From the NCBI GenBank assembly GCA_007116095.1, contig SKJD01000316.1, positions 1 to 15,384 on the forward strand: 15,384 nt of DNA. The letters run 5' to 3'. The notes under the pieces are model-generated. The model saw nothing but the letters and a program-made list of their open reading frames with translations, did not search any database and was not told the origin of the DNA. This document shows positions 2,333 to 15,378 of this stretch, piece after piece (positions within the stretch are counted from its first letter, which is position 1; each line of letters opens with the position of its first letter). A program made the position numbers and the translations under genes. This DNA is from Candidatus Hydrogenedentota bacterium (GTDB taxonomy: Bacteria > Hydrogenedentota > Hydrogenedentia > Hydrogenedentales > SCBR16-9).

Positions 2333-4669
2333 TTGACCTACATTAATATTAACCCACAGCATTGCATGTTTATTCGGGTTTGCCTGCTGCTCTGCCTCAT
2401 CCCCGCCATGAACGCGGCGGCTTTTTTTCGCAACAGCGAGGAATACCGCTCCATAAATACGGATATGTACGAGATCAGCATCGCCCGGAACGGTCTGACG
2501 GATTTGCTGTTGCTCTCCGGGGAATCAATTTTCGAGTCGGCGCATGTCCGCTATCAGTTGGCCGGGGGGCGCGACCAGCATGCCAACCTACCGGGCCGCA
2601 ACACAAACCGCCAGGAGGTGCAAGATAGGCTGGGCCAGGGCCAGGGCTTTGTCTTCGCCCACCGCAACCTGGAATGGTACATTCGCGCCTATCCCACCAA
2701 GCCCTTTATCGCGGTGCAGGCGGTTTACGTAAACACCGGCCGGAACCCAGTCCGGGTGGAGCGTTTGAGCCCCTGGGCCGTGCAAAGTGATCGAGGCAAC
2801 GGCGCGTTCAGCCTGGGCGCGAACGCGGAGAACGTCCGTATCCTGCCTACTGCGGACGGTGCGCCGAACCTGGCTTCGGCCACGGGCCCGATACAAAGCG
2901 AAGACAGCCTAATGCTCTACAATCCCACGACCGGCCGCAGCCTGATCGCCGGTTTCCTGACCGCCAACGATGGGCGTGGGGTGATCACTCTGGAGCGGGA
3001 TTCGAACACCCCCAACCACGCTTTCACCGGTTTCCGGGCCGATTGCGTCTATGATCCGCCGGTCGAGCTGGCTCCGGGTGAGCGCCTGGAGTCAGAGGTC
3101 TTCTACCTTGGCATTACGGAATCGGAAGCATTGCTCGGCATGGAACGCTATGCCAAGGCCTTCGCCGTGGTCAATGGGGTACGTGAGCCGGAATCGGCCC
3201 TGCCCAGCGGCTTCCGGCTGCGCATCCCGGAACAGGCGACGCCCCTCTACGGCGCAACGGTGGCCGCGTGGCTCGAAGAGGCGGCCATCACCCCGAACGA
3301 CCATTTCAACACCTTGCTCTGGGACGCCTCCTGGTTGACTGCGCCGGATCGCCTGGAAGCGAATCCGCAGCACCTGCGCGAAGGCTTTGCCCCGCTCCTG
3401 GAAGCCGCCCAGACACTGGGCTACGTATCACTACTTGAGGTCGCCCCGCTGCTCTGCACGGATCCCGCCCAACGCAGTGACCAAATTGCAGCAGACGCCT
3501 GGATGCCGTTGCGCGAGACCGCACGGAATCGCTTCGCGCCCCATACCCATGTACTCGACATAACCCATCCGGAGTCGGAGCAATACCTCCGCCAGCAGAT
3601 GCAGCAGGTTCTGGACTGGGGCTTCGCGGGCGTGCTTGCGCAACATGCGGACGCGGCCTTTTACGCGACGCTGCCAGAGGACGGCCCCACGGCGCTCCGG
3701 CGTGTGCATACGGCGCTGGAAACGCTGCGCGGCGCCCTGCCCGATGCGGCTCCGTTCATCGTCTCGCCAGCCACCATGCACACCGGCCTGCATGCGGACT
3801 ACGCCCTGATGGATGGGGGGCTCACGCCGGGCAGTGCGGGAACCCTGGAACAACGCAACGCCCGGACGGCCGCCCGCTTCCACCTGACGCCCAGCCTCTT
3901 CGAGGGCGTGTTCCAAAGCTGGACCGCGCCGGCGCATGTTGACAACCCGGCCAACCTGGCGGCCTGGCGACAGACCCTGTCGCAGATGGCCCTCAGCGGC
4001 GGGACTGTGCTGCTGCCCTGGCGGCCCGATCTTTCCCCGGAACTGGTGAATACACTGAGCGCCTTGTTGCCCCCCTCCGGCAAGACGGCCCGCCCCGCCA
4101 ACGTGGCTCCGGATGCTCCCATCGGTATCTGGCACGCACCCATCTATCGGGACGGACAGAGCCTGCATCTGTTGGGCCTACAGCATCTTGAAGGCGAAGA
4201 CGCCCAGCAGGTCAACCTGGCGTTTCATCAGGTAGGGCTGGACCCCTCCACCTACTACACCGTCTTTGACCTGTGGCAACGGCAGTACTTCGGAACCGCC
4301 CAGGGCCAACTTAGCGTACAGGTCGCTCCGGGCCACACCCGCCTCTTATTGCTGCGTCCCCATGAGAACCGCCCCGCTCTGCAATGGGTCGAAAATCAAT
4401 CCCCACCCTGGTCGACCCGACACGGCGTCGCCCGCTGGGACGCCACGGACCGCTCGCTCAAGGGACAATTCCAGGGCCGCCGCGATGAACACGCACGTGT
4501 GCGCGTTTCCGTGCCGGAGCCGTGGCGTTTTCTTGACGCTTTCAGCGGTCCCGGGGAAATGCAGGCCACCCTGGCGGATCAGATCGTGGAACTCAACGTC
4601 CATCCCCGACATGACGGCCCCATCGATTGGGAAATCCGCTTCCACGACGGTCGCTCCTCAACCCCTTAA
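2333..4669 (+). CDS. Secreted GH-D clan (alpha-galactosidase-like, GH36/27 type) protein, probably not a standard hydrolase
   Basis: The start is TTG 2333, chosen because AAAGGA lies 9 bases upstream; the in-frame ATG 2366 has no such site. Residues 12-31 form a hydrophobic signal peptide ending in an NAAA site, so the protein is exported. Residues about 35-290 look like the N-terminal beta-sandwich of GH36 enzymes. A barrel follows, with the family order: a 'VLDITHPESEQYL' segment near 407-419 (usual 'lD-t-P-v-~-yl'), then WGFAGVLAQ, and later LSGGTVLLP and LLPPSGKTARP, as in the ends of GH36 barrels. A C-terminal sandwich closes the 778 residues. At the expected nucleophile (usual K-x-D) the sequence has L435-A-Q437, and the acid/base Asp of the usual R-x-x-x-D appears as Gly within ALMDGGLTP (491-499). 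Fold assignment is moderate and substrate unknown. It is divergent from ptsI, and no sugar transporter adjoins it. Confidence 0.7.
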   Translation: MTYININPQHCMFIRVCLLLCLIPAMNAAAFFRNSEEYRSINTDMYEISIARNGLTDLLLLSGESIFESAHVRYQLAGGRDQHANLPGRNTNRQEVQDRLGQGQGFVFAHRNLEWYIRAYPTKPFIAVQAVYVNTGRNPVRVERLSPWAVQSDRGNGAFSLGANAENVRILPTADGAPNLASATGPIQSEDSLMLYNPTTGRSLIAGFLTANDGRGVITLERDSNTPNHAFTGFRADCVYDPPVELAPGERLESEVFYLGITESEALLGMERYAKAFAVVNGVREPESALPSGFRLRIPEQATPLYGATVAAWLEEAAITPNDHFNTLLWDASWLTAPDRLEANPQHLREGFAPLLEAAQTLGYVSLLEVAPLLCTDPAQRSDQIAADAWMPLRETARNRFAPHTHVLDITHPESEQYLRQQMQQVLDWGFAGVLAQHADAAFYATLPEDGPTALRRVHTALETLRGALPDAAPFIVSPATMHTGLHADYALMDGGLTPGSAGTLEQRNARTAARFHLTPSLFEGVFQSWTAPAHVDNPANLAAWRQTLSQMALSGGTVLLPWRPDLSPELVNTLSALLPPSGKTARPANVAPDAPIGIWHAPIYRDGQSLHLLGLQHLEGEDAQQVNLAFHQVGLDPSTYYTVFDLWQRQYFGTAQGQLSVQVAPGHTRLLLLRPHENRPALQWVENQSPPWSTRHGVARWDATDRSLKGQFQGRRDEHARVRVSVPEPWRFLDAFSGPGEMQATLADQIVELNVHPRHDGPIDWEIRFHDGRSSTP

Positions 4670-4919: not shown

Positions 4920-5057
4920 GAGATTAGAGCAGAATCAATAGTAGGAAGGGGAAGCAGCAGGCTCCCAGAGAAAATGTAGCGATAGGCAGGACGGTGCGAC
5001 GCCTGCCCATCGGGGGTGTATTGAATGCTGTATGGCGCTCAGAAGGGCTTTATCACA

Positions 5058-8000
5058 ATGAAAATGAAAAACGCAGCGAAAACGTTGACAGGTCGGACAG
5101 GGTCACTCCTACTGGTTATGTTGTTGGTGGGAGCCATCCTGCCGCTACACGCGCAGAATCTGCCGCCCGGGGAACGTTTTGAGCCCTCGGATGTGCCTTG
5201 GGATCCAGCCTTGCTGGAGCAATCCGACAAGGCTATATACGGGGAAGATGACCGCATTGATGTCTATGAGGAGACCGACCCCGAGCGGCGCGCCTGGGCG
5301 GCTTCTGTCGCCGCTATTGTGCCGGCACAGTTTCTGGTGCGGGACGGTCGTGGAAATTATGTATTAAATCCGCTTGAATATGGCTTTAACGGCATACCGG
5401 TCTGCGATGATGTTCGCTTCGCCGGACAACCGATTGGCGCCACGTGTACCGCTTTCATGGTTGGCAGCGACATTATTGCCACCGCCGGACACTGCCTCTT
5501 TCCTTTTGAGCTGGACAATTATTACATTGTCTTCGGCTATGAAATGGAAGATGAAGACACCCCCATCCTGGTGTTCAGCCCGAACCAGGTGTATGAAGTC
5601 GAAGAAATTATTGACTGGGCGCTCATGGGCCCCTTGGACCATGCCTTGTTCCGGGTGGACCGCCCCATTACCGCCCCCGAGGCAACGCCATTGCCCTTGC
5701 GGCGGGACGGCCAGATCGAATTGGATGAAAATGTGGGCACCATCGGGCACCCCACCGGTTTGCCCAAGAAGATAGCCTTTGGCGAAGATACTGTTGTTAC
5801 TGAAAACAGCCATCCCTTCTATTTTGGCGCCAACATCGATGTATTTGGCGGCAACTCCGGGGGGCCTGTATTTAACGCCGAAACAGGGCTGGTAGAGGGC
5901 ATAGCCGTACGTTCTTCCTTTCCGGAATTTGAAATGCGGGGTAATTGTACGGATGTGGTCTCATATCCCGACGATCACTTCGTCCAAACCGAAGTAAGCC
6001 GTTCCGTTGTCTTTGCGGAACTCGTCCCCGAGTCGGCCTTTGACCCGGCCATGATGGAGTTCAAGGTCCTTCCGACCCTGACAAACAACGGCAACCCCGT
6101 TGTGGCCGCGAGCTGGGTGCTGCCCACGCTGGCTCGCTTCCAGCAAGTCCATCTGGTGCGAAGCGCCGGGCATTTCCCGACTTCGCTGGAAGACGGCCGG
6201 GTGCTGGTCAGTGGCGATGACATCGAATCCTACGTGGACCGCAATGTGCAGTCCGGGGTCACCTATTTCTACAGTCTGATCGCCGAAGTGGACGACCCCA
6301 TCTATCCCTTAGTGATTGCGCATGATACCGCCAAGGCCGGTGAACTGGGCAAACCCGAACTGACCCAGGGCTTCGGCGTCTTCTCCGAAGACAACATCTC
6401 GGTGAGCACGCTCGAATACTCGCAAATCACCTTCACACCGGTGGATGCGCCGCGGGGTGAACTGGGAACCCAACGTTTCGTGGACAACACCTCCTATGAG
6501 GTCACCTTCACGCCGGATGTCTATGAGCTCCCCGTTCCCCGCCGGGATTCACAAGGCCAGGCCTATCGACTCCACCTGACGAATGATGGCATCGCCAATT
6601 TCAGGCTGGGTGAGTCAGTACCCTTCTTTGGTCGCTACTACAGCAACGTGTTTTTCGGCGCCAATGGCTTTATCAGCTTCCGCCGTCTGAATCCCGACAG
6701 TGAACTGAACTTCCCCAGTCTGGAATCGCACCTGGCCCTCCCCCGCATCTCGTACCTCTTCACGGATTTGTCACCGGATGCGGGCGGCGAACTCTGGGCG
6801 CGTGAACTGGAGGATCGCGTGGTCTTTACCATGCAGAATGTGGTGGAACGCCGCGGCGGCTTCGCCCAGCCGGCGCCACACCCCAGCACCGTGCAGGTTG
6901 AGCTGTTCTACAGCGGCCATATCCGCTTAACGTACCTGGAACTGGGAGCCCAGGATGCGATAGTCGGCATCAGCGCCGGTCGCGGGCTTCCCTTCGATGT
7001 GACCGAACTGGCCGCCGACCTCCAGGCCACACCGATCTACATCGACTTTGAAAACAAGCCGGAAATCGCCCAACGGATCAGCGTGGATCCGATTCCGAAC
7101 AAGTGGGTCTATGCCGGCCAAACGGTGCGCTTTGATGCGCAGGCCCGCGTGCCGGAGCACGCCACGGGCGCCCCGAAGCTGACCGCGGAATGGACGGGCT
7201 CAGGTCCGGCGCCCTTCGGGGACAACGGAGACGGCACGGGCTCCTTCGTGTGGCGCACCTCCTTCCTGGACAGCGGTGATTTCACGGTGCGCATTCATGC
7301 GACCCTGAACAACAAGACCGCCTACCAGGATGTAAAGGTCACGGTATACGATGTGTTCTTCAAGCCGGAGGCGCGGAACCTGGCCATCGCCACGGGCAAG
7401 CCCGGAGAAGACCCGACCGCCAGCCGCACCGTGGAGTTGGAGGACCGTCTGACCGCGCGTTATGAATTCTATCACCCGCTGGCGGAAGAACTGGCCGCCT
7501 TCTACGGCGAAGGTCCGACCATGCTCTACTGGTTCCGCAATGGGACGAAGATGCCCGGCCTGACCAACAGCCGCAGTGTGCCTCCGTCCTTCACCCAGGG
7601 TGGCGATCAGTGGACTTTCCGCGTGATTCCGTACACCAGCACCTACATCCGGGGCCTGGACGCGGTGTCGCCGGTTGTGACCGTCAGTGCGGCTCCGACT
7701 ATTACTTCCGTCTCCCCCGCCACCGGTCCCAAGGAGGGCGGCTACAATGTAATCCTGCGCGGACATCGCTTCGATAACACCCTGGAGGTGCGCTTCGGCT
7801 CCGCCAAGGCGACCCAATTCCAGGTGCTGAACAACGAATCCATCGAAGTGATCACGCCGCGCAATCCGGCTGGCCCGGTGGATGTCTACGTGCGCACCCA
7901 GAAAGGGGAGGGCGTCCTGCATGGCGGCTACACCTACCTGGAGCCGGGCGAGACGATCATCAAGGCCGACGTCAACAATGACGGCCGTGTTGATGCGCAA

Positions 8001-8150
8001 GACCTCCAACTGGTCATCAACGCCCTGCTGGGACTGGATAACGATGAGGATGCGGACAAGGACCTGGAAATCAACCCCGACGTAAACCGCGACGGGGTGG
8101 TCAATGCCCAGGACGTCCAATTGGTCATCAAGCACAGCCTGGGACGCTAA
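5058..8150 (+). CDS. Secreted V8/trypsin-like serine protease with beta-sandwich, IPT and C-terminal dockerin modules
   Basis: I chose ATG 5058: AGAAGGG sits 10 bases upstream and the product begins MKMKNAAKTL, followed by a hydrophobic core and an 'LHA' cleavage site, a standard signal peptide. An in-frame ATG at 5025 would put 11 extra residues before it. The protein has 1030 residues. The S1 protease domain (about 80-300) shows ATAGHC (His 145), DHALFRV (Asp 194) and GNSGGP (Ser 267), a complete triad. Next come a fibronectin III-like stretch (about 343-415), a beta-sandwich with 'FFGANGFISF' (about 500-650), an Ig/PKD-like stretch (about 678-765), another Ig-like part, an IPT/TIG domain (about 880-961) and a type I dockerin (970-1030). 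The dockerin has two calcium loops, DVNNDGRVDAQD and DVNRDGVVNAQD. It should be an active extracellular endopeptidase docked to a cohesin elsewhere; no cohesin is in the window. It has its own promoter and terminator. Confidence 0.92.
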   Translation: MKMKNAAKTLTGRTGSLLLVMLLVGAILPLHAQNLPPGERFEPSDVPWDPALLEQSDKAIYGEDDRIDVYEETDPERRAWAASVAAIVPAQFLVRDGRGNYVLNPLEYGFNGIPVCDDVRFAGQPIGATCTAFMVGSDIIATAGHCLFPFELDNYYIVFGYEMEDEDTPILVFSPNQVYEVEEIIDWALMGPLDHALFRVDRPITAPEATPLPLRRDGQIELDENVGTIGHPTGLPKKIAFGEDTVVTENSHPFYFGANIDVFGGNSGGPVFNAETGLVEGIAVRSSFPEFEMRGNCTDVVSYPDDHFVQTEVSRSVVFAELVPESAFDPAMMEFKVLPTLTNNGNPVVAASWVLPTLARFQQVHLVRSAGHFPTSLEDGRVLVSGDDIESYVDRNVQSGVTYFYSLIAEVDDPIYPLVIAHDTAKAGELGKPELTQGFGVFSEDNISVSTLEYSQITFTPVDAPRGELGTQRFVDNTSYEVTFTPDVYELPVPRRDSQGQAYRLHLTNDGIANFRLGESVPFFGRYYSNVFFGANGFISFRRLNPDSELNFPSLESHLALPRISYLFTDLSPDAGGELWARELEDRVVFTMQNVVERRGGFAQPAPHPSTVQVELFYSGHIRLTYLELGAQDAIVGISAGRGLPFDVTELAADLQATPIYIDFENKPEIAQRISVDPIPNKWVYAGQTVRFDAQARVPEHATGAPKLTAEWTGSGPAPFGDNGDGTGSFVWRTSFLDSGDFTVRIHATLNNKTAYQDVKVTVYDVFFKPEARNLAIATGKPGEDPTASRTVELEDRLTARYEFYHPLAEELAAFYGEGPTMLYWFRNGTKMPGLTNSRSVPPSFTQGGDQWTFRVIPYTSTYIRGLDAVSPVVTVSAAPTITSVSPATGPKEGGYNVILRGHRFDNTLEVRFGSAKATQFQVLNNESIEVITPRNPAGPVDVYVRTQKGEGVLHGGYTYLEPGETIIKADVNNDGRVDAQDLQLVINALLGLDNDEDADKDLEINPDVNRDGVVNAQDVQLVIKHSLGR

Positions 8151-10360: not shown

Positions 10361-10392
10361 TACTGGATTCCTGCGCAGGCAGGAATCCAGTA
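10361..10392 (+). repeat. REP-like palindrome, copy B (perfect 14-bp stem)
   Basis: TACTGGATTCCTGC (10361-10374), a GCAG loop and the exact reverse complement (10379-10392) form a perfect hairpin. Pairing extends outward to about 10354-10399 with one bulged base. It has no T-run, so it is a repeat more than a classical terminator, though it could block exonucleases or cause pausing between the convergent genes. Confidence 0.85.
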
Positions 10393-10484
10393 ATGCGTGA
10401 AAACATAACAATACAGCAATAAAGCAGCATGTTGTGGCGCATGGTCGCAAGGCCTGGTAACGGTATTCCATGTTAAATCAATGA

Positions 10485-10752: not shown

Positions 10753-10962
10753 TCATTCGGAGTCGCTGCGTCCCCAGGGCCGCCACCAGCGTCGCTCACC
10801 TTCCGCTTTGGTGGACTCGCCTCGGAGTGTGGTGTCAGAAGAATGCAGGGTATTGAATTTAACGGGTTCGTAAGAATTTTTGTTGTCGATCACATGCGAA
10901 TGCACACAGCCCGTCAAGCCGCCCAGCAGTCCGACCAGTCCCAGAAAACAAAGCTTTCGCAT
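10753..10962 (-). CDS. Small lipoprotein of unknown function
   Basis: The 69-residue product begins MRKLCFLGLVGLLGGLTGC: a positively charged start, a hydrophobic core and a lipobox (LTGC, lipidated Cys 19). This is a good type II signal peptide. The mature part of 50 residues is polar, with a basic and Trp-containing end (RRWWRPWGR), and matches nothing I know. I chose ATG 10962 because it gives a normal lipoprotein start; the frame extends to ATG 10992, which would add MFSTINEWNR before it. Only a weak GGA precedes either choice. It lies 58 bases downstream of the SbcC-like gene on the same strand, so it is probably the last gene of that operon. With Ser next but two (CVHS), there is no Asp at +2, so an outer-membrane destination is likely if the Lol rule applies. 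Confidence 0.7.
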   Translation of the reverse strand: MRKLCFLGLVGLLGGLTGCVHSHVIDNKNSYEPVKFNTLHSSDTTLRGESTKAEGERRWWRPWGRSDSE

Positions 10963-11020
10963 ACGATTCCATTCGTTAATGGTTGAGAACATTCAACACA
11001 AGGGCCTTTGCGCGCCAATA

Positions 11021-14000
11021 CTACACGTAATGCACCGACGTTTGCACCGCTTCCGCCGCCTGGACCACATCATCCCGGGTAGAATAGACCAACACTTGAT
11101 GCTGATCGCCAGCCATACGATGCAGTAACCGGAAGGTCCGCTCCAACTGCCAGTCGTCATAGCCTGCAAAGGCTTCGTTCAGCAAGAGGGGAACCGGCTC
11201 ACGATGCGCTGTCATTTCCTGTAACAGCGCGAAGTGCAAGCCGAAATACAACAACTCCAAAAGCGGCCGCTGCTTTGCGGCATCCGCCTCCAACACCTGG
11301 GCGCCATTTTCTCCCCGCAGCGTCAAGCTGAACTCTCCGTCCAGGTGCAGGTCGTGGTACTTGCCGCCCGAAAGCATCTCAAGATGCGGGCGAATGCGTT
11401 CACACAAACCGGGGATAAGCTCCTGTCGCGTCGCTCTGGCGGCGTCGTCCATCAGGGTCAAGGCGCGGCTGGCCGCCTCCAGCTCGATGCTCAACTCGTC
11501 CAATCGCTTGCGGTTCCAGGCCAACGTTTCTTCCAGCACTGTCACGCTGCTGATGTTCATCTGCCGTTGGGTCAACCGCATTTGTTGTTCCCGGTAGCTC
11601 ATTTCCCGTTGCTCGATGGCGCTGCCGAGGGCATGCATCTCGGCGCGCAAGGCTTCCTTGGGTCGTTCCGGGCACTCCGGCAACGGCGACTCCGCTTCTA
11701 CCCGCGCCTGCAACTCCGCGATATCCCGTCCCTGCAACAGCTCTTCCAGCGCATTCTCGGCTTGCACGCGCTCTTCCCAGGCCTCCTGGTACTCCTGGTG
11801 CAAGGCTTCTTTCTGAAGCCACTCATCGAGTCGTTTCACGCCGGCCTTGCCCAGCAGTGTGACAAAAGATGCTTCCTCCCGTTTCACCACTGCGGATTCT
11901 TCGGCGATCCTTGCCGTCAGACGTTCGTATTCCTCGCGGATGTTGTCCTGCAGCGAGGTATCCGGGTCTTGTGCTTCCAAGTATTCATTGTACTGCGCAA
12001 TCAAGTCCAGCGGCGGCAGCTTTATATTGCCCAGGCCAAACCCGAAACGCTCGACATGTTGTTGCAGTTTTGATTCCGCTTCGGCCAGCACCTGCCGCGT
12101 CATCGCATGCTGTTCCTTCAGCCGGGCGTATTCCTGCTGGTGACGCTCCAGCAACGAGCGGTAATCGGTGACCCGGCGCTTGGCTTCACGGTATTCCTGG
12201 TAACGGGCAATGGCATTGCCGCCGGCTTCCTTGACCTCATGCTCCGAAGCGATAACAATCCCAATCGGCTGGAAGGTCTTTTGAATCCGTTGCAACAAAC
12301 GCGGCACGCGCTCTTCCGCCTCCTTGGCGCGTTCTTTGGCGGCGTTCAACACGTCCAGGTGCGCTTTCAACATCGAGACGGCCTCGGTGTAGGTATCGTA
12401 CATGGCCTCCAGTTCACGAATGGACTCGCAACCCGCCCGTCGCAACATATTCTCAATGCGCTCGACGTCCTTGCCCCGCGATTCATGGCCCGTGGCGTGG
12501 CTGCGCGGCAATTCGCCCCACTTGTCCGTGAGCTCAACCAGTTCCCCGCCTGGCTTACGGCGGGTGTCCAGCATCTTCAACTCGGTTTCCAGTTGCGCCA
12601 GCCGCTTTTTGGCATAGACATAATTGCCCAAGAAGTACAGAAAGGACACAAACATCAGTACGGTGGAGATGAGGATTCCGGGGTTCAGGTAGTGGAGATA
12701 GGCCGCCAGGGTCATCACAAAGAACAAGCCGCAGGCCGGAGCCATCCAGAGGAAAGCGGGCATGCGCTCATTGATCTCTTCATATTCCAGATTCAGCAAC
12801 TGCCATTGCCGATTTTGCGCCCATTGGTCTTCACGCAAAGCCGAACGCTGCTGTTCGTAGTTGTGGATGGCTCCATGAAAATTGTCCATCCCATCAAAGA
12901 GCGACGCCGCATGGGCGTTCCGGGCCTTGTTGATGTCGTACTCGGCCTGAAGCTGATCGCGGTGGGCGCACTCCTCGTCCCGCGTTCGGATCGCCACCTC
13001 CAGGGAGTGGGTCAATTGCGTGATCCATTCAATGGGGTCCGCTGCAAAGCGGCTGAAATCCGGCAGCACCGCCGAACGCTCCTGGGCCTGAAGCAAGCGC
13101 ATCTCGGCGTCTTCCATCTGCTCCTGCACCACTTCCAGTTGGTTGCCCAACTCCTGCAGGTACGCAGCCTTGTCACGCAGGGTATCCTCCAGGCCCTCGG
13201 GAATGTCGCGTTCCGCCCGCTGCGTGGTCTCCGGCTCATCGAGGTGGATGTCATGCTCCCGTACCCGCTCCATCAACGCATCCAGGGCCGCTAGACTCCG
13301 CTCATGTTGCATCTGGGCCGTACGCAAGCGGTTTTCCTGCTCCCGCAGCACCGGAGCGATTTCCGAGGGAAATTCCCGGGCGGTGCTGAGCGAAAAGCAT
13401 CGCTTGGTGGCTTCACGGACCTCCGCTCGAAGCGCTTCAGCCCGTTCCAACTGGGCGGCCCGTTCGTAGGCATCCCAGATCAGTAAATTCTTTTCTACCT
13501 GCTTCCGGCGCGCATGGAGGCGGGCCAGCTCTTCTTCCAGTTGCTCCTGTTCCAGCCATTGCGTGCGCAGATCACGCCAGGAGTTGCGACTGAACTCCAG
13601 CTCCCTTTCCAGGGCATTGCAGCGGTTCCGGAGTCGGGTCAAGGGCTTGGCCGGGGTGCCGCCACGCCCGATAAACAGTATGCGGTTGTCGAGCCAGCGA
13701 CGTGCTTCCACCGCGTTGTACAGCGGCGCGCCACTATCCGCCAACGCCGCCAGGTGCTTCGACAAGGTCTCCAGGTCCGGCGCATCGCCCAGGGCATCCA
13801 ACTGCTCCTGGCCAATATGGGCCAATGCCTGAAAAAGCGACCGGGGCAGCCCCAGCCAGTGCTGACCAGCACCATTGTCCCCTGGGGTTTCCAGCCCTAC
13901 CGGCATGGGATGTCCCGCAATATCCGTCACTTGAACCCCAAACGCCAACGCCTCGTCATTTTCATCATACGCCGCCATCGAGGCGTGCGCCAGGGATACG

Positions 14001-14218
14001 ACGCGCTCTTCACCACTGCGTAGCGCCAGGCCCAGCCGTCCCCCCTGAAGACGCCCACCGGCGGGATAGAGCAGCCCGGTGATCACATCGAATGGGTTGG
14101 GTAAAGGTTGCTCCACGGCATCGCCCAACCGGGCCAATACGTGGAGCCCAGGTTCGAGCAAGAGGGGGCTTGTAGTGTCGCCGTTGTCTCCCGGCAGATG
14201 AAGAGTTCGGAAAATCAC
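11021..14218 (-). CDS. SbcC/YhaN-like coiled-coil protein with degenerate ATPase motifs and two membrane segments
   Basis: The start is GTG 14218, 7 bases after a perfect AGGAGG and overlapping the stop of the preceding gene by 4 bases (GTGA). The 1065-residue product has the layout of the YhaN branch of the Rad50/SbcC family: an N-terminal head part, a conserved 'LYNAVEARRWLDNRILFIGRGG' type region near 165-186, coiled coil (about 190-480), two adjacent transmembrane segments (about 489-505 and 512-532), more coiled coil, and a C-terminal head part. The nucleotide motifs are lost. Where GPNEAGKST is expected after GLHVLA there is RLGDAVEQP (30-38), so the Walker A Lys is Glu 36. The signature region reads EADAAK (977-982), Walker B is LLLNE with Asn 1014 for Asp, and the switch His is Arg 1048. 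ATP hydrolysis is therefore unlikely. It should partner the phosphoesterase-like protein encoded just upstream. Confidence 0.88.
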   Translation of the reverse strand: MIFRTLHLPGDNGDTTSPLLLEPGLHVLARLGDAVEQPLPNPFDVITGLLYPAGGRLQGGRLGLALRSGEERVVSLAHASMAAYDENDEALAFGVQVTDIAGHPMPVGLETPGDNGAGQHWLGLPRSLFQALAHIGQEQLDALGDAPDLETLSKHLAALADSGAPLYNAVEARRWLDNRILFIGRGGTPAKPLTRLRNRCNALERELEFSRNSWRDLRTQWLEQEQLEEELARLHARRKQVEKNLLIWDAYERAAQLERAEALRAEVREATKRCFSLSTAREFPSEIAPVLREQENRLRTAQMQHERSLAALDALMERVREHDIHLDEPETTQRAERDIPEGLEDTLRDKAAYLQELGNQLEVVQEQMEDAEMRLLQAQERSAVLPDFSRFAADPIEWITQLTHSLEVAIRTRDEECAHRDQLQAEYDINKARNAHAASLFDGMDNFHGAIHNYEQQRSALREDQWAQNRQWQLLNLEYEEINERMPAFLWMAPACGLFFVMTLAAYLHYLNPGILISTVLMFVSFLYFLGNYVYAKKRLAQLETELKMLDTRRKPGGELVELTDKWGELPRSHATGHESRGKDVERIENMLRRAGCESIRELEAMYDTYTEAVSMLKAHLDVLNAAKERAKEAEERVPRLLQRIQKTFQPIGIVIASEHEVKEAGGNAIARYQEYREAKRRVTDYRSLLERHQQEYARLKEQHAMTRQVLAEAESKLQQHVERFGFGLGNIKLPPLDLIAQYNEYLEAQDPDTSLQDNIREEYERLTARIAEESAVVKREEASFVTLLGKAGVKRLDEWLQKEALHQEYQEAWEERVQAENALEELLQGRDIAELQARVEAESPLPECPERPKEALRAEMHALGSAIEQREMSYREQQMRLTQRQMNISSVTVLEETLAWNRKRLDELSIELEAASRALTLMDDAARATRQELIPGLCERIRPHLEMLSGGKYHDLHLDGEFSLTLRGENGAQVLEADAAKQRPLLELLYFGLHFALLQEMTAHREPVPLLLNEAFAGYDDWQLERTFRLLHRMAGDQHQVLVYSTRDDVVQAAEAVQTSVHYV

Positions 14219-15378
14219 AGGATATCCTCCTGGACGCCCCGTGCCGGAAACGGAATTTCCGGGTGAAACGCCACCCAGCCAGCTTCCCGCGCACGACAGA
14301 GCACCCGCCAGCGCCGGGTATCCGGGGCATCGTCAATCTCCAACCCCACCCGTTGCAGGAAGCGGCCCAACGTCGTCGGGCTTGGCGCGTAGTCCGCATA
14401 AAACCCCTGGGGCTGTGTTTCGTCAACCAACTCCACATACAACAAGCGTTCCGCCAGACTTTCCTGTATCTCCGGGAGCACCCCGCGCACCTTCAGGGAC
14501 AGACTCCCCCCCAATATCAGGCGCAGCACCAAACGCTCTGGAGCCACCTTCAATTGCGCAATATCGTCCTCGAGTCGCCGCAACAGCGCCTCGGCGCTTT
14601 GCTCCTCATCGCATGTGACCTGCTGCACCAGGAGAACCGTTGCATCCAGTTCCCGGGGGCTTACCTGCACCGTAGCGCCGGAATCCGGCGAATCCGTGAA
14701 AGAAACTTCAAGAAATTGTGTCGGCTGCACCGCGATAGCATGTTCCAAGGGTGGTATGGCGGGGTAACCGATCCGGGCCAGCGCATCCTCCACTATCCGA
14801 CACGTCGGACCATTACCCCCCAGGGCCAGATAATGGGCTTGTTCCAGGGCCGGGTGCATGACCGGTTTCAGAGCATGGCGCGCTTCCGGGGCCGGCATCA
14901 CCGGCGCCAACGCCACACGATGCGCCGAGGGCGTTTTCCAGAGCGACTCCGGGAATGTGGGCAAGCCGGTTTCCAGGCAAGATCGCGCACAACCGGCGAC
15001 CGACAGGGAGGTATCTGCAATCTCCCACACCGACCAGGTATCATCAAAGAAATGGACATTGTCGGGCCAGAGCCCACGGGTATAAGGCGATCCCGAACTG
15101 AGGGGGTCCCTCTCGCCGGCGGCGATACAGACCGGAATGTCGCCCAGATCTTCCAGGCGTTCCTTCAACCAATGCAGGGTGGACGGCAGATAGCGCGCGC
15201 CTTCAAGCAGGTTGCCCGCCACCAGCACGGCATCGGCCTGCACCGTGACTGCATGGTGCAATATCTGTTCCAACGCGGCTTTAAGCCCGTCCCGACAGGC
15301 ATTACAAACTTCTGGCGGCAGGGAAGCCCCCACGAAGGAACGATCCAGGCGAATGTCGGAAAGGTGAATAAGTTTCAT
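14215..15378 (-). CDS. SbcD/YhaO-like metallophosphoesterase homologue with degenerate metal site
   Basis: The product (387 residues from ATG 15378) starts MKLIHLSDIRLDRSF, as Mre11/SbcD/YhaO nucleases do. Family blocks can be followed in order, but metal ligands are replaced: D-x-H becomes D8-I-R10; G-D becomes G55-N56; G-N-H-D becomes G-E89-R90-D91; the 'i-a-l-l-H-g' His becomes Pro 159 (VALAPV); and A-L-G-H-x-H becomes ALGGNG (185-190). Only two of the usual ligands remain, so phosphodiesterase activity is unlikely. The C-terminal part (about 210-387) fits the capping and partner-binding region. The gene overlaps the SbcC-like gene by 4 bases, indicating translational coupling. GTG 15384 is an alternative start at the window edge; upstream signals lie outside the window. 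Confidence 0.88.
   Translation of the reverse strand: MKLIHLSDIRLDRSFVGASLPPEVCNACRDGLKAALEQILHHAVTVQADAVLVAGNLLEGARYLPSTLHWLKERLEDLGDIPVCIAAGERDPLSSGSPYTRGLWPDNVHFFDDTWSVWEIADTSLSVAGCARSCLETGLPTFPESLWKTPSAHRVALAPVMPAPEARHALKPVMHPALEQAHYLALGGNGPTCRIVEDALARIGYPAIPPLEHAIAVQPTQFLEVSFTDSPDSGATVQVSPRELDATVLLVQQVTCDEEQSAEALLRRLEDDIAQLKVAPERLVLRLILGGSLSLKVRGVLPEIQESLAERLLYVELVDETQPQGFYADYAPSPTTLGRFLQRVGLEIDDAPDTRRWRVLCRAREAGWVAFHPEIPFPARGVQEDIL

Follow-up and report, generated by a model that had tools for sequence, protein, structure and literature searches.

A membrane-anchored YhaO-YhaN-type Mre11-Rad50 pair without intact catalytic motifs as a candidate structural complex in Hydrogenedentota

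What is an Mre11-Rad50 complex kept for when neither partner retains its active site? How the work of such complexes divides between catalysis and tethering is a debated matter, and the question is raised by a contig of a Candidatus Hydrogenedentota bacterium (assembly GCA_007116095.1, contig SKJD01000316.1; G000:C217 in our numbering). The window analysed here is this entire 15,384-base contig, which belongs to a metagenome-assembled genome (MAG) that is 64% complete. Its reverse strand, to which all coordinates of the pair and its parts refer, carries a pseudo-Mre11 of 387 residues, a relative of the YhaO-type metallophosphoesterases (positions 14215 to 15378), and then a YhaN-type pseudo-Rad50 of 1065 residues (11021 to 14218). 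The two open reading frames (ORFs) overlap by GTGA, confirming the translational coupling described in a first-pass annotation of this DNA, which had also proposed that both partners lost catalysis and took on a new shared role, perhaps in the envelope. Our best explanation, to which we assign a probability of roughly 0.7, is that the pair forms a membrane-anchored YhaO-YhaN (SbcEF-type) Mre11-Rad50 complex that has lost its nuclease and ATPase chemistry and is kept as a structural complex. Its basis is the loss of the motifs, the existence of orthologues dead in like manner, the retention of coil and transmembrane (TM) hairpin, the separate losses in different lineages, and purifying selection in lineages other than that of the window.

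The loss of catalytic motifs is complete in both partners, as the first-pass annotation had it. The pseudo-Mre11 matches intact YhaO-type proteins of its order (best E value, 4.3e-50), and in alignment with these relatives none of its five phosphoesterase motifs is intact. D8-I-R10 replaces the DxH of motif I (15349 to 15357), GN replaces GD in motif II (15211 to 15216), GERD replaces GNHD in motif III (15106 to 15117), the AHG of motif IV is absent, and GGNG replaces GHxH in motif V (14809 to 14820). The protein has no match in Pfam and, in NCBIfam, only a sub-threshold one to SbcD (18.3 bits against a cut-off of 77.65). Compared alone with solved chains, it gives no significant match (best E value, 0.6), and profiles of the window proteins together with intact relatives match solved Mre11/SbcD (1.5e-13) and Rad50 (1.9e-11) chains.

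The pseudo-Rad50 matches the intact YhaN of the order over its full length (profile comparison, E value of 4e-142 over 1026 columns), and none of its three ATPase motifs is intact in the alignment. RLGDAVEQP occupies the place of the Walker A motif GPNEQGKST (14105 to 14131), KQRPLLEL that of the ABC signature LSKGTVDQ (11252 to 11275), and LLNEAFAGYDD that of the Walker B/D-loop stretch LLDDPFANYDD (11153 to 11185), with the aspartate pair of Walker B gone. Pfam finds no AAA family in the protein; the AAA_27 profile, which detects 13 of 14 controls, has no match anywhere in the window's genome. Both ORFs are nevertheless open at normal length, and their GC content by codon position is coding-like. 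Dead pairs thus escape annotation, since the window pair shows neither an AAA nor a metallophosphoesterase domain in Pfam, unlike the intact pair of the same order, which gives AAA_27 and Metallophos. This intact pair, exemplified by G021 (JAKQOG010000180.1), is a direct homologue of the window pair: it has the same length, gene order, and TM hairpin, matches it by profile over the full length, and differs in its intact motifs, five of five for the nuclease and three of three for the ATPase.

In Firmicutes, YhaO-YhaN (SbcF-SbcE) consists of a nuclease gene followed by an ATPase gene, encoding Mre11-like and Rad50-like proteins that are taken as active enzymes; going by the title of Krishnamurthy 2010, YhaN, as SbcE, is reportedly linked to double-strand-break repair. 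The window pair resembles this system in its gene order, in its Mre11-like and Rad50-like proteins, and, going by distant YhaN-type proteins, in its mid-coil TM segment, and it differs in that both active sites are gone. By homology, measured against intact members of the order rather than against YhaO and YhaN of Bacillus subtilis, it belongs to the YhaO-YhaN/SbcEF family; by the catalysis that defines the family, as predicted from the motifs, it does not. One report describes SbcEF as implicated in double-strand-break repair and as poorly characterised (PMC6452273), and another counts it among SMC-like proteins (PMC12748557). Among the titles and abstract openings listed for the literature searched, a body of work that subscription papers mostly fall outside, there was no description of dead bacterial Mre11-Rad50 pairs. 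With SbcCD and Mre11-Rad50, the window pair shares the fold family, as judged by the profile matches to solved chains, and it departs from them in its TM hairpin, in the absence of CxxC at the coil apex, and in an SbcD score below the cut-off; unlike in SbcCD, catalysis would not be expected of it. A comparison with SMC-like defence ATPases, among them LmuB of Lamassu, gives coil and head matches for the intact YhaN of the order (50 bits to LmuB), whereas the window ATPase reaches only 17 bits to LmuB and its Mre11 partner has no match.

A search for orthologues among 5.8 billion proteins retrieved proteins that are dead in the same manner. One of them (P0001, on a 30,414-base contig) is the window Mre11 with one substitution; the others are 75% (P0002) and 48% (P0003 and P0004) identical to it. 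All four carry DIR, GN, and a third motif of the form G[ED]xD and lack GHxH; motif I is invariant in P0002 to P0004, and one motif IV histidine is kept in P0003 and P0004. P0001 and P0002 have a 22-residue N-terminal extension beyond the start of the window Mre11. The Rad50 orthologues P0006 and P0007 (51 to 52% identity) have lost all three ATPase motifs, and P0004 and P0007, each found on a 7,248-base contig, probably come from one and the same contig. Because P0001, P0002 to P0004, P0006, and P0007 show the same kind of losses, the motif losses of the window are not a local sequencing slip. The same search returned a Rad50-like protein of 877 residues (P0010; 27% identity to that of the window) whose Walker A and signature are unrecognisable in the alignment and which possibly represents another dead lineage.

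To place these losses, we turned to the order, Hydrogenedentales, whose 68 genomes are all the genomes of the phylum considered here. Matches to Mre11 were found in 65 of the 68 (37 of the 38 near-complete ones) and matches to Rad50 in 59 of the 60 genomes searched, including 38 of 38 near-complete ones. The Rad50 ORF adjoins the Mre11 ORF on the same strand in 61 of the 62 genomes with an Mre11 ORF: in 58 according to a script allowing gaps of -250 to 100, and in three more (G026, G044, and G050) where the longest Rad50 ORF overlaps more of Mre11. At the sole non-adjacent locus (G032), the contig ends. We scored a nuclease as dead when at least two of its five motifs fail and an ATPase when any of its three does, so that a single failing nuclease motif leaves G006 and G043 in the nuclease-intact class. 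Four of the 68 genomes (G062, G063, G066, and G067) have fragmentary or no matches and fall outside the locus analysis. Among the 64 genomes with a pair ORF, both partners are intact in 42, only the nuclease is dead in 9, only the ATPase in 3, and both in 8, with 2 (G003 and G049) lacking an Mre11 row; in these counts the ATPase was judged intact from part of the three motifs, the ORF being cut, in 11 genomes (G003, G030, G031, G036, G039, G046, G049, G054, G057, G059, and G061) and dead on a similarly partial basis in G041 and G045. In one of the 11, G057, a 163-residue fragment with PDSQQGKTA, the ATPase state is best taken as undetermined.

The losses recur in different lineages. Nuclease-only loss characterises genus g13 (4 of 4 genomes), g36 (both of those examined), and two of the four g6 genomes, and ATPase-only loss characterises g31 (3 of 3, with G041 judged from Walker A alone). 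Double loss occurs in the window clade, in the other two g6 genomes, in both g22 genomes, and in G038, G045, and G053 of g28, and the double-dead state is present in three separate lineages. For 65 rows, a tree that uses only the coil and Mre11 C-terminal columns, and hence leaves out the motif-bearing parts, requires by parsimony five nuclease and three ATPase changes, with the caveat that long branches may meet in it. Approximately unbiased tests reject a single clade of the 10 double-dead rows (p = 4.7e-5) and of the 13 ATPase-dead rows (p = 1.5e-12). When the long f6 branch is left out, a mixture-model tree of 30 rows needs four and two changes, respectively, and well-supported branches again part the window clade from the dead block of family f10. 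Independently of any tree, dead and intact states are mixed within families f5, f10, and f11 and within genus g6. Nuclease and ATPase activities were therefore lost repeatedly, separately, and in both orders, and the earlier idea that the two were lost together does not hold as a rule. Degenerate homologues of the kind that the first-pass annotation had suggested looking for do occur elsewhere, as dead orthologues in other metagenomes and as separate dead pairs within the order.

In pairwise comparisons of the 45 ATPase-intact Rad50 rows (3 of them database proteins and 8 from nuclease-dead genomes), the coil was never better conserved than either head (0 of 990 pairs). Between the window protein and P0006/P0007 the pattern is reversed, with identities of 0.24 to 0.32 in the N-terminal head, 0.57 in the coil, and 0.46 to 0.48 in the C-terminal head, and P0006 and P0007 compared with each other give 0.59, 0.89, and 0.77. 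The reversal recurs in other ATPase-dead comparisons (0.42, 0.62, and 0.52 for G043/G051; 0.19, 0.43, and 0.39 for G038/G051). Within the dead clade, conservation per 25-residue block peaks at residues 176 to 200, in the coil base (residues 176 to 215, 13574 to 13693), with an identity of 0.90 to P0006/P0007 as opposed to 0.37 to intact proteins. Next come the coil blocks before (residues 351 to 425, 12944 to 13168; 0.73 to 0.75 identity to P0006/P0007) and after the membrane hairpin (residues 601 to 700, 12119 to 12418; 0.72 to 0.74 in the dead clade), and then the hairpin itself (0.67 to 0.68 over residues 480 to 545). In G043/G051, a separate ATPase-dead pair, it is again the two flanking blocks that rank highest (0.77 and 0.86, respectively). 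In the pseudo-Mre11, the first 20 residues (0.80 conserved in the dead clade) and the C-terminal region (residues 281 to 387, 14218 to 14538; mean identity of 0.48 to 0.80 per block to P0003/P0004) are well kept, and residues 121 to 280 have drifted to 0.05 to 0.35. On the basis of the Mre11 family, we take the C-terminal region to be the part that binds Rad50. Judging from these alignments, selection on the dead proteins has moved rather than vanished.

Substitution rates point the same way. For the nuclease-dead pair G048/G052, in which the synonymous rate (dS) is unsaturated (0.45 to 0.65), the ratio of nonsynonymous to synonymous rates (dN/dS) of the dead Mre11 is 0.13 in the core and 0.12 in the C-terminal part, and that of its intact Rad50 is 0.07 to 0.10. 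Intact Mre11 pairs (G044/G050, G009/G059, G047/G055, and G002/G010) give 0.08 to 0.13 in the core and 0.16 to 0.28 in the C-terminal part. Across the order outside the window clade, dead proteins have ratios of 0.12 to 0.56 where computable, values that are rough since dS is near saturation in most dead pairs (about 1.1 to 3.1, with some regions saturated). The shared noncatalytic role put forward in the first-pass annotation is thus supported by orthologous dead proteins, by separate dead pairs, and by dN/dS values below 1 wherever they could be computed.

Several observations weigh against a retained structural role. Besides the near-saturation of dS, every dN/dS value, the rate test suggested with the first-pass annotation, comes from lineages of the order other than the window's own clade. 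The reversal of head and coil conservation concerns the N-terminal head only in G027/G035 (0.47, 0.55, and 0.57 for N-terminal head, coil, and C-terminal head) and G038/G053 (0.24, 0.41, and 0.43), and it is absent in the double-dead pair G013/G019 (0.61, 0.61, and 0.65). The flanking blocks are unremarkable in G027/G035 (0.53 and 0.50). The core of intact Mre11 proteins is better kept than the C-terminal part in 860 of 861 pairs, and in the window clade this advantage is merely flattened (0.48 to 0.49 for the core versus 0.45 to 0.46 for the C-terminal part, relative to P0003/P0004). Finally, the dead Rad50 frame of G045 (L091, from position 3763 on) contains two in-frame stops and is otherwise open; this copy may be decaying, or the stops may be an error of the MAG.

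These in-frame stops would be expected if the complex were a useless vestige, with both genes decaying towards deletion, and the fast evolution of the heads, the long branches seen within the dead block of f10, and the dN/dS of up to 0.56 in G038/G053 can be read likewise. However, the frames of the window and of its orthologues are open over their full length at about 50% identity, the coil is 0.57 to 0.89 identical with one block at 0.90, the dead Mre11 of G048/G052 evolves at a dN/dS of 0.12 to 0.13, and a Rad50 homologue is present in all 38 near-complete genomes. We consider decay of this kind improbable.

We return to a structural complex and to the part of it that may reside in the membrane. 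The pseudo-Rad50 has two TM segments in the middle of its coil (residues 488 to 506 and 513 to 531, within 12626 to 12757), as identified by hydropathy and as reported in the first-pass annotation. Classical Rad50 carries its zinc hook at this site; residues 480 to 550 of the window protein, at the coil apex, contain no CxxC, and the hydrophobic hairpin is found there instead. At the same hydropathy threshold, P0006 and P0007 show one mid-coil TM segment each. All 58 family proteins longer than 940 residues (53 of the order and 5 database proteins) have such segments, two in 45 of them and one in 13, P0006 and P0007 among the latter. Of the distant YhaN-type proteins, from 40 loci, 20 passed the ORF filter, and each of these has at least one mid-coil segment. 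This supports predicted membrane anchoring as a general trait of the YhaN type rather than of dead pairs; the anchoring claimed earlier for the window pair is borne out in so far as the segments exist, and it is not peculiar to that pair.

The data suggest a structural scaffold or tether as the best reading of the dead pair, with the coil base, the two juxtamembrane coil blocks, and the hairpin as the parts that may carry this role. A possible arrangement would have two pseudo-Rad50 coils anchored in the inner membrane through the TM hairpin. The C-terminal region of the pseudo-Mre11 would clamp the coil bases, replacing the ATP-driven closure of the heads, and the coil blocks flanking the hairpin would form the working surface, which might bind a partner or organise DNA at the membrane.

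This order, with its repeated losses of both sites in genes that remain paired and constrained, amounts to a natural experiment pointing to a structural role. Since either activity can go first, the ancestral complex of the order probably already had a role independent of catalysis. A wider and more tentative proposal, which we hold at somewhat less than even odds, is that the membrane-bound Mre11-Rad50-type complex of this order is basically structural, the coils, the hairpin, and the Mre11 clamp being essential and cutting and ATP hydrolysis being options discarded independently in either order. If so, the dead pairs would be natural separation-of-function mutants of a bacterial Mre11-Rad50 complex.

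A dead pair could also have a regulatory part, modulating a second Mre11-Rad50-type pair of the same cell that is still intact. All four genomes of g13, in which the nuclease of the first pair is degraded, have a second YhaO homologue (63 to 100% identity to the G014 copy), and in both loci read (L108 and L110) the gene after it encodes a YhaN-like ATPase of some 1190 residues; in these second ATPases (G014 and G026), no TM segment was seen by hydropathy. However, strong matches to the second YhaO (at least 54% identity) are confined to 6 of the 68 genomes, with none in f6, in g22 and g28 of f10, in g36, or in the genome of the window, whose 64% completeness makes this last absence weak. A regulatory role of this sort is quite unlikely. 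The second Mre11-like genes lie at L107 to L110 (G034, G026, G037, and G014, respectively) and at L111 and L112 (G011 and G058), and the match in G037 spans one TGA. As a general compensation for dead pairs, a second YhaO-YhaN pair was rejected in view of its presence in so few genomes, and canonical SbcD was likewise discarded as a back-up nuclease, there being none above the NCBIfam cut-off in the 68 genomes.

Alternatively, the core of the pseudo-Mre11 might have been re-purposed to bind a ligand or to carry out other chemistry with its altered residues. This would fit the invariance of LSDIRLDRS in the four dead-clade proteins, the conservation of the first 20 residues, and the emergence of R at the same place in G026, a genome of another family. 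The drift of residues 121 to 280 speaks against it, as does the loss of metal ligands: of those expected in the family, D8 is the sole one left in the window, P0003 and P0004 keeping the motif IV histidine as well. We regard a new pocket as very unlikely.

The three-part envelope complex of the first-pass annotation, with a downstream lipoprotein as third member, is scarcely credible. As stated there, a lipoprotein-like ORF follows the ATPase stop on the same strand at a distance of 58 bases (10753 to 10962); it has an LTGC lipobox and encodes 69 residues (79 in the longest reading of the frame). Among the 5.8 billion proteins, however, it retrieved no homologue but itself, short proteins being hard to find by shared words, and in the other 52 of the 53 genomes examined no lipoprotein-like ORF was seen in the roughly 400 bases that follow the pair (for comparison, a random control gave 27 of 2,000). 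It was rejected as a member of the complex and probably stands outside the system. With homology and neighbourhood both against it, the TM hairpin is all that still speaks for the envelope location first proposed.

On the other side of the pair, the contig ends 6 bases upstream of the pseudo-Mre11 ATG, which places the window's own upstream neighbourhood outside view. In the order, the most frequent neighbouring cluster besides the pair itself is a family-2 glycosyltransferase (Pfam), found in 11 genomes. In 8 of the 48 genomes listed, this gene (L042, 5937 to 6914, and its cluster) has the same orientation as the pair and precedes it either immediately or with one ORF in between. The count is a lower bound, as the Mre11 ORF was missed by the gene picker in 14 of 62 genomes. 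Elsewhere in the window, a 43-nucleotide repeat occurs at 174 to 216 and 10367 to 10409, the copies being 77% alike, and the forward strand encodes a large protein (5025 to 8150) with trypsin-like, IPT/TIG, and dockerin domains.

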